Source: Tubulanus polymorphus
Lineage: Eukaryota > Nemertea > Palaeonemertea > Tubulaniformes > Tubulanidae
Assembly: GCF_964204645.1 (NCBI RefSeq)
Contig: NC_134032.1
Coordinates: forward strand, 11,278,275 to 11,342,274
DNA length: 64,000 nucleotides
Direction of reading: 5' to 3'
The notes under the pieces were generated by a model, which was not told the origin of the DNA, searched no databases, and saw nothing but the letters and a program-made list of their open reading frames with translations. Below are positions 28,446 through 48,191 of this stretch, piece by piece. The position numbers were made by a program, and so were the translations under genes. Position 1 is the stretch's first letter, and every line of letters begins with the position of its first letter.

Positions 28446-29250
28446 TTGTATATTAACCCTCGATTCGGATGCCTTTTCGTAGCATCACTACAAAGCTTCA
28501 CAGACGTATCCATCATCTGAGCTCGCTAGGACGATACGACCTAAGGTAGGTTTGTGACTATAGAATATTGAGTACGGCGTTAGATGTTTTAGTTTTTAGG
28601 TCAAACACATATCAAGTGAGTTTTATTTTTCATTTCAGTAATCATGAAAGGTTTCACGTTTACCCTGCTGTTTGTGACTATATTTGTGGCGGCGATTGAC
28701 GGTCTATCACCCATTACTCGTTCCACTCGTCCGCCTGCCACGACTGCTGCACCTATAACCGCTGCACCTACCACAGCGACCATGATAAATGATAACCACT
28801 TTTTAACCACTGCCCCACCTGCTTTGAGTGCACCTGCTTTGAGTGCACCTGCTTTGAGTGGTAGTTCTGAAAGCGCAGAATGCAGTTCGAGCAGTTCCGA
28901 GGAGGATTCCGACGACGCACCAAACAGCACGGACAAACCGGTCACTGCTATTCTGTAATTAAAATAGAGGTAATTTTAAACGTTTTTTTTTCATTTAGAA
29001 CTTTAATTTGCTTTATGACTTCACCCGTTTAGATACAGTTAATTAATGTCAAATCCAAAATTGAAAAAAAAACACCTTGAATATATAGGCGCGAAAGGGG
29101 GTTTATTCATCTTTTTCATTTTTCACATTTTCAGAGTATTATTGAACAGACGACTAATCGAAACTACATTCAATCTATATAAGGGCAGAATCTAACCTTG
29201 CGGAATATTGTGATTCTAATCCTGGTCAATAAATAATCTCAGCATTAATT
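28446..29250 (+). CDS. Small secreted Thr/Ser-rich acidic protein, paralogue 1 (unknown)
   Basis: Coding sequence 28644-28958, 104 aa. A leader exon ends at 28545 (AAG|GTAGGT) after a TATA-like GTATATTAA at about 28448. Exon 2 is 28639-28969 (donor AATAGAG|GTAATT) and a non-coding exon 3 starts at 29135, with AATAAA at 29228-29233. The protein begins with a clear signal peptide (MKGFTFTLLFVTIFVAAIDG). A Thr/Pro/Ala-rich part follows, likely O-glycosylated. Then comes a tandem ALSAP repeat and a Ser/Glu/Asp tail (SSSSSEEDSDD-like) that fits Fam20C-type S-x-E phosphorylation. It shares its signal peptide, tail, introns and flanks with the gene at 36119. I recognise no family. Expression is unproven, but conserved gene structure between two diverged copies argues for a real gene. 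Confidence 0.7.
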
Positions 29251-35245: not shown

Positions 35246-36890
35246 TATATAAACCATCGATTTTGATGCCTTTTCGTAGCATCACTACAGAGCTTCACAG
35301 ACGTGTTCATCATCTAAGCTCGTTGTTGGACGATACGACTTAAGGTAAGTTTGTGCCTACGAAATATTTATTATGGCGTAAGAATTTCTAGTTTTTAGGT
35401 TTCTTTGTACTGCGTAAAAACCGTTACAATAATGTTTATATACATTGATACTATAGTATGCGTTATTTAAGGGGTTATGCACAAGTCGATGTGCACCACG
35501 TCATCAATATAAGCTTTTCAGAACAACATTTACAATTGTGAATTTCGGCGTTTATTTCGTAACCAAGTATATACATTTCATAATGACTAGATACATCCCA
35601 CAATGATTCAGGCAAAGATGAAAAATTCTTGATTAGAAGAATATATATTTTGAGCAACGTTTCGGCTAAATACTATTAGCCATCATCTCGAACGTAATGA
35701 GAAACAAAATTGAAGACCACAGTGAAATTTCTACAAGATTGCCTTCACGAAAAGGTGATTCCTCGATCTATGAACTGTATCAGGAGATTCGATTCGAACT
35801 CACCCTTTCCGTCAGAAGCAAGTTCTCATCTTAAATCAGCTATCAGAAAGCTAAAGACGATTGCGATTATCAATTCTACATTTCATAACTCTTATTTTAT
35901 TTTTGATAAATTCTAATAAATATTTCTTAGAGGATGTGAACTACGTCCTCAATATATCGGGTCAAGACTGGTTCAAAATCCAAAATAACTTTATTTCATT
36001 GATCCTTGATATTATTTGATTTACTATACTATTTATTGTCGACAATATTGAGCAATATATGTGTTATTTTACAAGGCGTCAATAAACTTTCAAGTTTGTT
36101 TTTTTAATTTCAGTAATCATGAAAGGTTTCACGTTTACCCTGCTGTTCGTGACTTTGGCTATATTTGTGGCGGTGATTGATAGTCTATCACCCAATACCA
36201 CTACTGTTACTGTTCCACCTACAACTGCTCCACCTGCCACCACTCTACCTTACCCTACCACTACCCCAATAATAGGAGACACTTATGAATTTTTGTATCC
36301 AAATACACCCTCTACCACTACTCCCCCTCCACATTACACCACTCCTCCACCAACACCTACCACTACCCCAATGGTAGGAGACTCTTATCAATTTTTGTAT
36401 CCAAATACACCCTTGGAAGAAGATAAGTTTAACACCACAGCTCCGCCTGCCGTATTCGTAACCGGCGCCACTGATGTGAGCAGTTCAAGCTCAAGTAGTA
36501 GTTCTGAAAGCTCGGAAAGTAGTTCGAGTAGTTCGAGCAGTTCCGAAGAGGATTCCGTCGACGAGGAACCTGCTGTTATGTCGATGGTCGCTCAGAATAG
36601 AGGTAATTTCAGACGTTTTTCTTAATAGAGCTTTCATTTGCCTTTACCCGTTTAGAGTGATCAACGTCAATTGTATTATTGACAAAAAAGGAGATCACCT
36701 TGAACGAGCGTCTGTTCATCTTTAGGGAGTCTGTTCATCTTTAGGGAGTCTGTTTATCCTAATCTTTGTTCATATTTCCAGAGTAGACAAGCGCATCATG
36801 ACTGCGACAGACAACTGGTAAAAAATTATCCAATCTACGGGCAGAATCTTCCCTTCGGAATATTGTGTTCCTGATCCTGGTCAATAAAAT
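35246..36890 (+). CDS. Small secreted Thr/Pro-rich, poly-Ser acidic protein, paralogue 2 (unknown)
   Basis: Coding parts 36119-36602 and 36782-36786, 162 aa. The TATA box TATATAAA is at 35246-35253. The leader exon ends at 35344 (AAG|GTAAGT), exon 2 is 36114-36602, and a short last exon supplies a final Glu and the TAG stop. Reading through instead would add seven residues and stop at 36625. An AATAAA lies near 36882. The protein has a signal peptide (MKGFTFTLLFVTLAIFVAVI). A mucin-like Thr/Pro domain follows, with two copies of a TTTPxxGDxYxFLYPNTP motif. A poly-Ser/Glu/Asp segment of about 35 residues then suits secreted-kinase phosphorylation. The two FLYPNTP repeats are absent from paralogue 1. 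Such chemistry is known in adhesive, tube-cement and mineral-matrix proteins, but a role here is only a guess. Confidence 0.75.
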
Positions 36891-43032: not shown

Positions 43033-44345
43033 CTATAAAACCCACAGGGACTTGTCACGATTGATAATGGATGAGACCAATGATGGGGGTACCAGTATCC
43101 CTGCAACTGTATAATAAAATAACAAGGGTGGCAACAAATTTTCAATCTGACAATGACTTCTCCACTTCAATCGACTGTAATTCCAAAAATCCTCAACCGA
43201 TTCACATGAAATAAGCTTTAATACAACCTAGAAGACTTTCTGCTTCGAACGAGCCTACAACCACCACTCTCCGACAATTATCTCACAACGAAATCACCTT
43301 TTTTTGACGAGAGATAGCTCAAAATGGAGGTGTACCGATTCTATGGTGGACAGCAAAATGGTCGTTTTTTTCAATTCAAACGATGATTTCTATGTGAGAT
43401 CTTAGAGATAACCCCAACAAACCATACATTTTTTAAAACTACGCGGTCATACCTGTACGCTTATCTCATTTATTTGTATAATCCACGCGATGGGTGAGCT
43501 CACAAGCTCAAAATTGAAAATGAGGACGAACACGGTGTTCAACTTGTCATCAACTGGGCGGCCATTAATCACGTGATATCGTAGTAACGGGCTAAATATT
43601 TCACGCGCATTGATTGGCTTAGAGATTTCGAAAAACATTACAAAATTTATTAAAAGTTCTGTTAATTAATAAAATATCCGTATTATGAAAATATAGTGCA
43701 ACATTCGTCTGAGGGGTGGTATTATTAGCAAATATTTCCTTTTTTCAAGTCTACAGACGTAGACTTGTCGCGGTTCTATTAACATAGCCCGAACCTGCAC
43801 GTCACGTGATTAATGGCCGCCAGCGCGATAGTGCGAGGTGACTTTTTCGTATATTTGTTCGATTTTGAGCTTGTGAGCTCACCCATCGCAAGGATTATAC
43901 AAATAAATGAGATAAGCGTACAGGTATGATCGCATAGTTTTAAAAAATGTATGGTTTGTTGGGGTTATCTCTAAGATTTCACATAGAAATCATCGTTTGA
44001 AGTGAAAAATACGACCATTTTGCTGTCCACCATAGAATCGGTACACCTCCAATTTGAGCTATCTCTCGTCAAAAAACGGTGATTTCGTTGTGAGATAATT
44101 GTCCTAGAGTGGTGGTTAAAGGCTCGTTGGAAGCAGAAAGTCTTCTAGGTTGTATTAAAGCTTATTTCATGTGAATCGGTTGAGAATTTTTGGAATTACA
44201 GTCGATTGAAGTGTAGAAGTCATTGTCAGATTGAAAATTTGTTGCCACCCTCGTTTTTTATATTATACAGGGATAGTGGACCTGGTCATTGATGTTGGTT
44301 TTATTCATTCACTATCAATTGTGACAAGTCCCTGTGATAAAACCC
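43033..44345. mobile_element. 1.3-kb foldback (long inverted repeat) in MTERF3 5' intron
   Basis: The left arm at 43033-43590 pairs with the right arm at about 43785-44345. Matching blocks in order: ACCCACAGGGACTTGTCAC, TTCCACTTCAATCGACTGTA, TAGAAGACTTTCTGCTTC, GAGATAGCTCAAAATGGAGG, GATTCTATGGTGGACAGCA, GGGTGAGCTCACAAGCTC and CCATTAATCACGTGAT. Arms are about 555 bp at high identity and the loop is about 195 bp. The repeat lies entirely inside the untranslated-leader intron (42682-44424). No transposase frame is seen. Confidence 0.85.
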
Positions 44346-44728: not shown

Positions 44729-47700
44729 ATGGCGGAGTTGATGAGACGAGCTGCGTGTAGTTTAAACATTTCCAGAATTGTGAGGTAAATGCGAAATCAG
44801 TCGCGGCGAAGGAAACTGCAAAACATTTTGAACATTTCCATCCCTGTCTGTGGCAGGCTTTTAAACCCGAGCGTTTCAGACTGACCTCGGAATTCAACTT
44901 CGAAACTCGCATTTAGTCGTGCTAATTACCGAACCGAAACATCCGGGGTTTCTACTAATACTAACTAAAATAAATAAATGACTATTAAGGTGAGATTTCC
45001 TTATTTTTTTTAGCCATCACGTAAGACTGATGTCTTCTGGAGCTGGACAATCTGGTGACCTTGGTTCTGGAGCAGGAAAGGTACAGTTTTCTTACAGTTT
45101 TCTTACTTATGATTCTAGACTTTACATACAATTCTTAGTTTTACTTTGATTACCTCACTGACACTTTTTCATTTATTTATGAATCTTTTCTTCTCCAATT
45201 TTAGGGAGGTGGCAAAGGTGGAAGCATTAGGTAAGCTTTAGATAACCCTATCGTGCTGCTACAATTCCAGTCATTTACCCAACCTATTCCTACATTTTCA
45301 TCCTATTCCTACCTAAACTCGCCAATTTGCCCATCCACTGTATTTCTGATTCCTACTACGAAATATGTAAGTAATCATATCAATATTAGTCAACACAATG
45401 ATGGTCCTAACTACAATGACTTAAGTGAATGAACCCTTTGTTACCTTTTACATATTAAATTCCTGTCTAAATACTGAAGGATTCGGAGTTTAATTTAATT
45501 CTTTTTTGGTCTGATATTTTTCAGAGATGCTGGTGGTTCCTTCGGACGCAAGGGAGCTGCGCAGGAAGAAGAATACTTTAGAAAACAGGTAAATATTTGA
45601 TCAACTTTTAAGACCCGGTTCATGTTCGGTCTAGTCGATCAAAATGAATTCAATATCTTAAGGCTGATTTCAGAATGTTTCTGGTCTTCTGGGTCCGATT
45701 TCATTAACAAGTCTAAGCGTAGAACGGTTAAGTTGTTGACTTTATTGAAAACTTCTAATTTTAAAATATAGCAAATCAAAAATTTGACTACTAATTTTTT
45801 GTGAAACTGGGCCCTGGTATCAACCATTTAAGTGAATTTTGACTCAGTTTCTCGCGTATTTGTAGTTTAAGTTTAGTTCACTTTGAAACTGAAAACTGAG
45901 TCAAAAACCAACTTTTTTCGAAACAAATTCCTGCATTTTTTCGCATTCAATATCTTAAAATTTATTACAGATATTCCGTAAACCGCATGTTGAAATTTTC
46001 AGAGATATTTTCAGCTCGCGTCGTAAAAATTTCGGCTGGATGTTTATTCTATTTCAGCATATGCAACAATTGAAGGCTTTGAAAGAGTCTTTGCAAGAGG
46101 AAATCAGTTTTCACGAGGGGCATATCAAACATCATAAGGTCGACTGTGCTTGTCGCTAATGACGCTCGCACGCGCATGTGCTATATAGTCTCATTTATGT
46201 CCCCCTCTAAAAGCTAGGGCTCGATTTTGGCAGTATTTCAGAGAATACTAAGATTTTTTTTATACTTTCCATCAGGATACCTTTTATATTAGTATTTTCT
46301 TGATAAGCAATAAAATCAAAGGTAATATGGGATAACAACTAACAATTGTGGATCTGGTATCCCTCGGAAGATACTCTCTAGAACTGTGGTATAAATCGAG
46401 CCTTAACTGAGATTTCGTAATATCTTTCTTATAGTCTCCCTCGACGCATTTGTATCATCGGCGTGTTTTCTTTATTTCTTTTTCTTGTCGCAAGGAAAAA
46501 TTTGGAAAAATAATTCTCATCGGCCAGGTCGGACTGAAGTGACAATTACGAGGCGTTTGATAGAAGAAAGAAATGATGGCCTTAGAAATGTACATAGAAT
46601 GAATTGGTTTGATGGTGATTGTCTAAGGCACTTGGAAATGAGAATTATTTTCGCTGATTTTTCAAATTGAGTCCGTTTCCACTTTCCTGATGATCGTCAT
46701 TGGTTTGAGCTCAGACAAAATCGTGTCAACTTAAATCGATTGGACTGTGGAATCGGGCAGCGAGCTTTTTGTAAACTATGCATGATTCAGAACTCAGTTC
46801 AACAGTTGTGAGTTAGATATTTGTAGTTAGATACAATAGATTATTGCCTCGGATTATTGGATGGCTCGGACAAGATGTCGAAAGATTTTATTCTACATTC
46901 TCGCCTGACAACTAACTGTTGAACTGGGTTCAGCTGCTTTTTGAGTAGTCGAAAACATATTTATCCATTCGTTTATCCATTTTCTTCTCTTTTCTCTTCA
47001 TCTCTCGTTTTGTTTTCGCTTGCGACTAAAACAATCCGTAGCAATCGAAACAACTGAAAGATTTGAAAGATCATTTAGAAGAAGAGGTGGGACACCACGA
47101 AAAGGAGATTAAACGCCATAAGGTATTGATTAAATCTCGTTGAAAAAAGCTGAATTTGCAAGTCGAATTCTCTTGATTTGACGCTGATTCGCCGTACGCT
47201 ATTCGGCATGATCCCGGTTCATCAGACGTGAGTAGATACTGCATCCCCTCTGGAGCTCCGGACTATTTCTCCAGTAGAACATTTCGGATCATTTGGGACC
47301 AAATCAATCCACTTGATGTGAAATCCAGATTGCATATTATTATCATTTTATTATGAGTATTTATAAATAGATAGATAAACAATATCTGGATTAAACTGCT
47401 CGTATTTTGACATTCGAGGTAACTGTGACTGAAGAATTTTGAAAATATCTGGTCGTTAAGTTTGATGCTAGACTAACAACTGAAAGCAGAATCCATTTCA
47501 TAAAGCATGCATGTAAGATAAGCATTATGTGCATTGTACAGGGAAAGTGGGAAATTCTTTATGAAAAAAATCTAGTGCTTTTCTTGCTTTATAATATACA
47601 AATATATTTGTTCTATACTCATCACACTTATTGATATGTATCCTATGCGTGTACATGTATATGTTTATCCGCCTAGCTGCACCTTTCTCTTAGTAATTAC

Positions 47701-48191
47701 TTCCTAAATTAAATCTCACACTTTGAAATACGAGTCAGTCAATGTCAGGGTTCATAGCGGTCCTGGAATGTTTTAAAATGGGAATGGTTGATTCCATGGT
47801 CTTGAGTATCATCGAAATGGGCTTCAAAAGAATCTTTAAAAATTGTCATAATGGTCCTTGAATGGCATCAGTCATTAGTTATCATCTGCCGATCCATGAT
47901 ACAAGTTCACTGTTTACAGCTCTTAAAATCTACTGATTATAAGAATGCTTTGAAAGTGTAGTAGATTTCAGGATTCCTGGCTTAAGCATGGCGATGTTAT
48001 GTATGTCCTGGAATCGGAGTCCGAAAAGTCATTAAAAGTCATTGAGACACTATGAACCCTGGCTTTGATAATGTATATCGAAATCCTAACATTTTTCAAA
48101 ACGTTTCAAAATCTTATTTCAGGAATCAATCGAGCGTCATAAGAAGCGAATGCTGAAAATTAGCCGCGAAGAGAAGCCCAAAGACGATTAA
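44729..48191 (+). CDS. ATP5IF1: Mitochondrial ATP synthase inhibitory factor 1 with two alternative helix exons
   Basis: IF1 blocks ATP hydrolysis by F1-ATPase when matrix pH falls. Exons: 44729-44784, 45014-45080, 45205-45230, 45525-45588, then either 46058-46138 (5a) or 47042-47122 (5b), then 48123-48191. Using one of 5a/5b gives 120 aa. Residues 1-30 form a basic transit peptide. A Gly-rich stretch, GSIRDAGGSFGRK, and the inhibitory EEEYFRKQ (the conserved Tyr of the inhibitory helix) follow. Exons 5a and 5b are each 27 codons, phase 0 at both ends, and each aligns over its full length with the single 27-residue human segment starting SREQLAALKK. They are therefore alternatives rather than additions. 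5b keeps the His-His pair (GHHEKEIKRHK); 5a has Phe-His (SFHEGHIKHHK). The last exon ESIERHKKRML matches the coiled-coil end. ATTAAA at 48383-48388. Confidence 0.95.
46058..46138 (+). other. ATP5IF1: IF1 alternative exon 5a
   Basis: An acceptor ATTTCAG precedes it and the donor is AAG|GTCGAC, which is weaker than that of 5b. It encodes HMQQLKALKESL, then QEEIS, then FHEGHIKHHK. It carries four histidines beyond the start residue, placed differently from the bovine pH-sensing pair. Confidence 0.85.
47042..47122 (+). other. ATP5IF1: IF1 alternative exon 5b
   Basis: The acceptor is ATCCGTAG after a pyrimidine-poor stretch, and the donor is AAG|GTATTG. It encodes QSKQLKDLKDHL, then EEEVG, then HHEKEIKRHK. 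It is the closer match to vertebrate IF1, retaining the adjacent histidines that control oligomer state in the bovine protein. Confidence 0.85.

Follow-up and report, generated by a model that had tools for sequence, protein, structure and literature searches.

The window analysed here, a stretch of 64,000 nucleotides (nt) of the Tubulanus polymorphus genome, holds a single complete gene for the ATP synthase inhibitor IF1 on its plus strand, with exons 1-4, two candidates for the fifth exon, 5a and 5b, and a sixth exon that carries the stop codon (Table 1). The boundaries of 5b and of the constant exons were set by spliced alignment. Exon 5a (46058-46138, HMQQLKALKESLQEEISFHEGHIKHHK) and exon 5b (47042-47122, QSKQLKDLKDHLEEEVGHHEKEIKRHK) lie in tandem between the end of exon 4 at 45588 and the start of exon 6 at 48123, with an intervening intron of 903 nt; each is 81 nt long, in phase 0 at both ends and free of stops, with AG immediately before it and GT immediately after. 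Both align without gaps to residues 38-64 of bovine IF1, and the original prediction of two tandem 27-codon, phase-0 exons that match the same single segment of vertebrate IF1 is therefore upheld by the sequence, the AG/GT bounds and the homology. No second IF1 locus or retrocopy was found genome-wide, the IF1-like places being exons of this one gene only; a scan of the whole genome with the Pfam IATP model was empty despite the presence of the gene, given its short exons, and thus is no evidence of absence. As expected, no relatives were found in collections of prokaryote and viral sequences.

Table 1. Features of the IF1 locus, in window coordinates.
Feature	Position	Strand	Basis
IF1 exon 1, coding part, presequence beginning MAELMRRAACSLNISRIV	44729..44784	+	spliced alignment, sequence
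IF1 exon 2	45014..45080	+	spliced alignment
IF1 exon 3, 26 nt	45205..45230	+	spliced alignment
IF1 exon 4, in which the inhibitory helix begins (ending SFGRKGAAQEEEYFRKQ)	45525..45588	+	spliced alignment
Candidate alternative exon 5a, with 27 codons aligned to bovine positions 38-64; acceptor strong, donor (GTCGAC) at bottom of range	46058..46138	+	
Read-through of 5a: VDCACR, then stop TAA at 46157-46159	46139..46159	+	sequence
AATAAA (46309) and donor AAG/GTAATA (46322), top-scoring in the 5a-5b intron; could be used by a terminal exon or by an extended 5a that includes a stop	46309..46327	+	
3' splice region of 5b: AG-free over 91 nt, pyrimidine-rich, PTB-like motifs, very weak terminal acceptor	46950..47041	+	
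Candidate alternative exon 5b, with 27 codons aligned to bovine positions 38-64	47042..47122	+	spliced alignment, sequence
IF1 exon 6 with stop (ESIERHKKRMLKISREEKPKDD, then stop), C-terminal dimerisation helix	48123..48191	+	spliced alignment

The resemblance of 5a and 5b to IF1 and to each other is not due to chance. Against bovine residues 38-64, 5b scores 65 and 5a scores 39, and the next best of the 87 open stretches in the window with the layout AG, 27 codons, GT, which formed the comparison set, scores 8; the score of 73 between 5a and 5b was reached by none of 20,000 shuffles. The two exons are identical at 14 of 27 residues and at 52 of 81 bases, their 30-base flanks agree at 11 bases, which is near background, and the homology extends to the final codon and ends exactly at a common AAG/GT. 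At synonymous sites, 10 of 13 differ (proportion differing, pS, 0.77), which is saturated, against a proportion of 0.28 at nonsynonymous sites (pN); conservation between the exons is greatest at codon position 2 and least at position 3. When one copy was allowed to decay neutrally in simulation while the other kept its protein, such an open frame and such values arose in 0 to 2.25% of runs, the figure varying with the branch length assumed. The duplication is old and, given the saturated pS, the low pN and the rarity of neutral-decay matches, both exons have probably been coding through most of their history; a recent loss of one would still be compatible with these values. The reading frame is intact in both.

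With either exon, the encoded protein belongs to the same family as bovine and human IF1 (PDB 1gmj, 8h9e): the Pfam IATP (PF04568) score is 93.8 bits with 5a and 91.2 bits with 5b, far over the curated cut-off of 25 bits and gap-free, and PDB matches reach 1.5e-26. The protein with both exons scores 92.9 bits and that with neither 60.8 bits. The residues of the F1-binding helix that are important in bovine IF1 (F22, R25, A28, E30, Y33, F34, K39, E40, Q41, L42, L45) are mostly preserved; R25, K39 and E40 differ, with Lys39 and Glu40 of the bovine protein present in neither 5a nor 5b. Within and beyond the exon, Gln41, Leu42, Leu45, His56 and His70 are preserved in both forms, the first three of which contact F1 in bovine IF1 (PMC3041923).

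The two forms differ in their histidines. Five histidines of bovine IF1 (48, 49, 55, 56 and 70) have been tied to pH regulation (PMC10417293), four of them as the pairs 48-49 and 55-56 (PMC9317440), and His49 is the key residue of the pH switch, which is abolished by H49K (PMC6156145). The form with 5b retains 48, 55, 56 and 70, and that with 5a retains 56 and 70 and has histidines elsewhere, at positions 38, 59, 62 and 63 in bovine numbering. The bovine pair His48-His49 is thus Ser-Leu in 5a and His-Leu in 5b, and His55-His56 is Phe-His in 5a and His-His in 5b, so that neither exon carries both pairs of the pH-switched vertebrate protein. The place of His49 is taken by leucine in both, as it is by Leu44 in the yeast inhibitor (PMC3041923). 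It had been claimed that 5b keeps an adjacent His-His where 5a has Phe-His and shifted histidines, and that the isoforms should for this reason differ in pH response. The first part is confirmed, although the pair in question is His55-His56 and does not contain the residue of the H49K switch. The second stands only in weakened form: the histidines of 5a and 5b do differ, but the literature credits chiefly His49, and Phe-His at 55-56, as in 5a, also occurs in PDB 7dtl, a solved protein of the IF1 family. A difference in pH response between the isoforms is therefore possible and plausible, but not firmly predicted. The 7dtl protein is similar to insect IF1. Each of the two exons is like a version that suffices by itself in other organisms, and 5a is therefore judged to be no damaged copy of 5b. 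PDB 9b0x chain J was not used as an arthropod IF1, since the brine shrimp map had been fitted with a zebrafish model.

Splice-site strength was scored with donor and acceptor matrices derived from 40 introns that belong to other genes in the same genome and were located by spliced alignment of the housekeeping proteins PP2A, ATP synthase beta, GSK3, Ran and 14-3-3. The acceptor of 5a scores 12.9 and is among the strongest (controls 4.8-14.3), and its donor, AAG/GTCGAC, scores 0.7, level with the weakest of the 40 control donors (range 0.7-13.2), with a C at +3 that is found in none of 46 real donors. The acceptor of 5b, at -3.0, is below all 40 controls (minimum 4.8) and its donor scores 4.3. 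The sum of acceptor and donor is 13.5 for 5a and 1.2 for 5b, against 12.3-27.5 for 32 control internal exons, and as its sum lies below every control, 5b is unlike an ordinary constitutive exon. Upstream of 5b, the AG-free zone of 91 nt is matched by 2 of the 40 control acceptors, and the 9 PTB-like motifs within 80 nt of this region are equalled by 0.24% of the stretches of the window; no branch point was identified in it with confidence. Human exons with long AG-free zones, where the threshold was at least 100 nt, are more often alternative (PMC1431707).

These unequal sites would also suit a gene in which one exon is a relic, 5a through its decayed donor or 5b through its decayed acceptor, that is now always skipped, so that only one IF1 is made: the 5a donor lies at the bottom of the range and the 5b acceptor well under the control minimum. 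Such a relic is unlikely, given that the frames are undamaged and that the key family positions and the Pfam score are intact with both exons. Furthermore, decay since the duplication is disfavoured by the simulation, though a recent loss would be compatible with it, and the pyrimidine-rich AG-free zone of 5b seems built rather than decayed.

At the level of junctions, the sums are 22.4 for exon 4 to 5a, 6.4 for 4 to 5b, 7.3 for 5a to 6, 10.9 for 5b to 6, 16.1 for 4 to 6 and -2.4 for 5a to 5b, with controls at 9.7-24.3. No other junction in the gene comes close to the weakness of 5a to 5b, which also scores under every control, and a transcript with both exons is thus the least favoured. This bears on the proposal that 5a and 5b are cassette exons: some or all transcripts would join them to encode an IF1 of 147 residues, its helix extended by 27, or both would be skipped together. 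Every combination of exons stays in frame, the joined form keeps a high Pfam score and the skipping junction is an ordinary one. Nevertheless, this proposal is improbable, and for more than the weakness of the 5a to 5b junction: an insertion of 27 residues corresponds to 7.5 helical turns and would leave the inhibitory part and the dimerisation helix about half a turn out of register, and skipping loses the matches to the bovine F1-binding residues Gln41, Leu42 and Leu45 (PMC3041923).

The weak donor of 5a has a further consequence to be weighed. If the strong acceptor were used and the donor read through, translation would continue into VDCACR and a stop 18 nt on, and the transcript would either be terminated through the AATAAA at 46309 or exit via the donor at 46322, with 5a serving as an alternative last exon. 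The product would be an IF1 of 104 residues with the whole inhibitory helix and without the C-terminal dimerisation segment, monomeric and like bovine 1-60. The weak 5a donor, the in-frame stop at 46157, the top-scoring donor of the intron lying past it and beside the AATAAA, and the likeness of the product to bovine 1-60 make this a serious rival, if still an unlikely one; short 1-60 constructs of IF1 bind F1 (PMC3041923) and size isoforms of mammalian IF1 have been credited to splicing (PMC6050379). The AATAAA, about 150 nt past the stop, is however unremarkable and adds little as evidence, since the window contains 82 copies. Moreover, the homology of 5a and 5b reaches the last codon and halts at the shared AAG/GT, and equal length is not required of a terminal exon.

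The account we favour, with somewhat better than even confidence, is that 5a and 5b arose by an ancient tandem exon duplication and are used alternatively, most likely in a mutually exclusive manner. They are neighbouring, internal, homologous exons of 81 nt each, in phase 0 and with AG/GT bounds, and such tandem, equal-length, in-frame exons under old constraint look like known mutually exclusive exons; when homologous exons, internal and terminal, were predicted for the X chromosome of the fly, internal mutually exclusive clusters made up about 70% of them (PMC3228551). We infer that both exons are in use and that two IF1 isoforms of 120 residues would result, differing at bovine positions 38-64, a segment in which the F1-binding helix ends and a histidine-bearing link leads on to the dimerisation coiled coil. 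The 5a donor and the 5b acceptor, which face the intervening intron, would lack the strength to be spliced together, yet each could be joined to its constitutive partner. Inclusion of 5b would probably rely on regulators acting at its long, pyrimidine-rich, AG-free 3' region, and inclusion of 5a would probably require help at its own donor. The expected effect would be the same inhibitor with altered strength, oligomerisation or pH response.

Several observations weigh against this account. Besides the bottom-range donor of 5a and its C at +3, transcripts with both exons or neither stay in frame, 81 nt being divisible by three, and there is nothing to remove them. The 903-nt intron is too long for simple steric blocking. 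All splice sites are GT-AG and none has a U12 donor consensus, so a mixture of U2 and U12 sites does not enforce exclusivity, and none of the known routes of enforcement (steric distance, a U2/U12 mix, a frameshift on joint inclusion) is thus seen here. Pairing between docking and selector RNA sequences did not stand out clearly from chance, the best pairings being matched by 8 of 60 and 3 of 60 shuffles. Finally, a control exon pair in the COQ-2 gene of the same genome lacks such weak inner sites. The route left for exclusive use would be competition between sites of unequal strength together with regulators acting on the 5b region.

The COQ-2 pair merits closer comparison. On C5, two tandem homologous exons, 6e (20101473-20101603, 131 nt; L057:1974-2104) and 6a (20102556-20102689, 134 nt; L057:3057-3190), show the diagnostic Leu/Phe and Ser/Ala differences between the e and a forms, with donors at 5.3 and 5.3 and acceptors at 5.4 and 9.4, under average but not extreme. 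In nematodes, flatworms, annelids and molluscs, exclusive splicing of 6a and 6e is proven and switches synthesis between rhodoquinone and ubiquinone in animals capable of anaerobic respiration (PMC7434440). As with IF1, the tandem homologous exons belong to a nuclear gene whose product serves mitochondrial energy metabolism; unlike IF1, exclusivity and function are proven, the splice sites are not extremely weak and joint inclusion breaks the frame (exon length 134 nt in C. elegans, and 131 and 134 nt in this genome). Given the tandem exons, the animal probably makes rhodoquinone. COQ-2 is a positive control for exon pairs of this type here, and it points to physiological conditions under which a second IF1 could be useful: in anaerobically respiring animals, complex I is still able to drive ATP synthase without oxygen (PMC7434440). 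A link between the two genes is offered as a hypothesis. It is conceivable, though doubtful, that an IF1 splice switch acts alongside that of COQ-2 in a facultatively anaerobic lophotrochozoan, one isoform keeping the brake off and the other braking as in aerobic animals, and it is equally doubtful that the brake-off isoform would permit rhodoquinone-based, oxygen-free ATP synthesis in an acidified matrix.

Other known systems share parts of this arrangement. The mutually exclusive exons 4a/4b of vertebrate OGDH likewise tune the regulation of mitochondrial energy metabolism, and their 3' splice region contains a large pyrimidine tract with distant branch points (PMC7969005); the region before IF1 5b is likewise pyrimidine-rich, the difference being the 903-nt intron of IF1. 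Exons Ab and 3 of U2AF1 are also duplicated exons with splice sites of unequal strength, one beside a long pyrimidine tract, but have been experimentally dissected and belong to another gene and an independent duplication (PMC5224494). The 12 and 8 kDa forms of mammalian IF1 are credited to splicing and differ between tissues (PMC6050379), but are described as size isoforms rather than as products of exchanging homologous exons that encode a single helix segment. A search of the literature, covering open-licence papers, found no described pair of alternative homologous exons in IF1, in agreement with the original prediction that no such case was known. It is a genuine question how anaerobic animals prevent reversal of ATP synthase while allowing ATP synthesis in an acid matrix; if the favoured account is true, IF1 would be under splicing control like COQ-2 of the same genome, and an exon swap in the linker between inhibition and oligomerisation would give a natural pair of variants with which to probe the role of this segment.

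Directly upstream of the IF1 start lies a long inverted repeat (43043-44336) with arms of 402 nt at 43117-43518 and 43858-44259 that are 95% complementary, and outer arms of 32 nt at 43043-43074 and 44305-44336; by its look it is a foldback mobile element. Long-range inverted repeats between introns were set aside, as their order is not nested. Across the window (1-64000), the observed/expected ratio of CpG is 1.09, with no sign of methylation-driven CpG loss. Elsewhere in the genome, four copies of a C-terminal 14-3-3 exon lie on one strand within about 15 kb (C2:21559814-21574912), as tandem genes or alternative exons, and an intact-looking lophotrochozoan Hox cluster at C6:5318228-5634747 has Lox5-, Lox2/Lox4- and Post2-like genes, with a Post1-like gene on another chromosome (C7:16160411), a gene set indicative of a lophotrochozoan. 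Mitochondrial COX1 was not found in the assembly. Within the window, the open reading frames at 28620-28955 and 36086-36622 contain a near-identical, signal-peptide-like MKGFTFTLLFVT followed by Thr/Pro- and Ser/Glu-rich sequence, and possibly represent a small family of secreted proteins.
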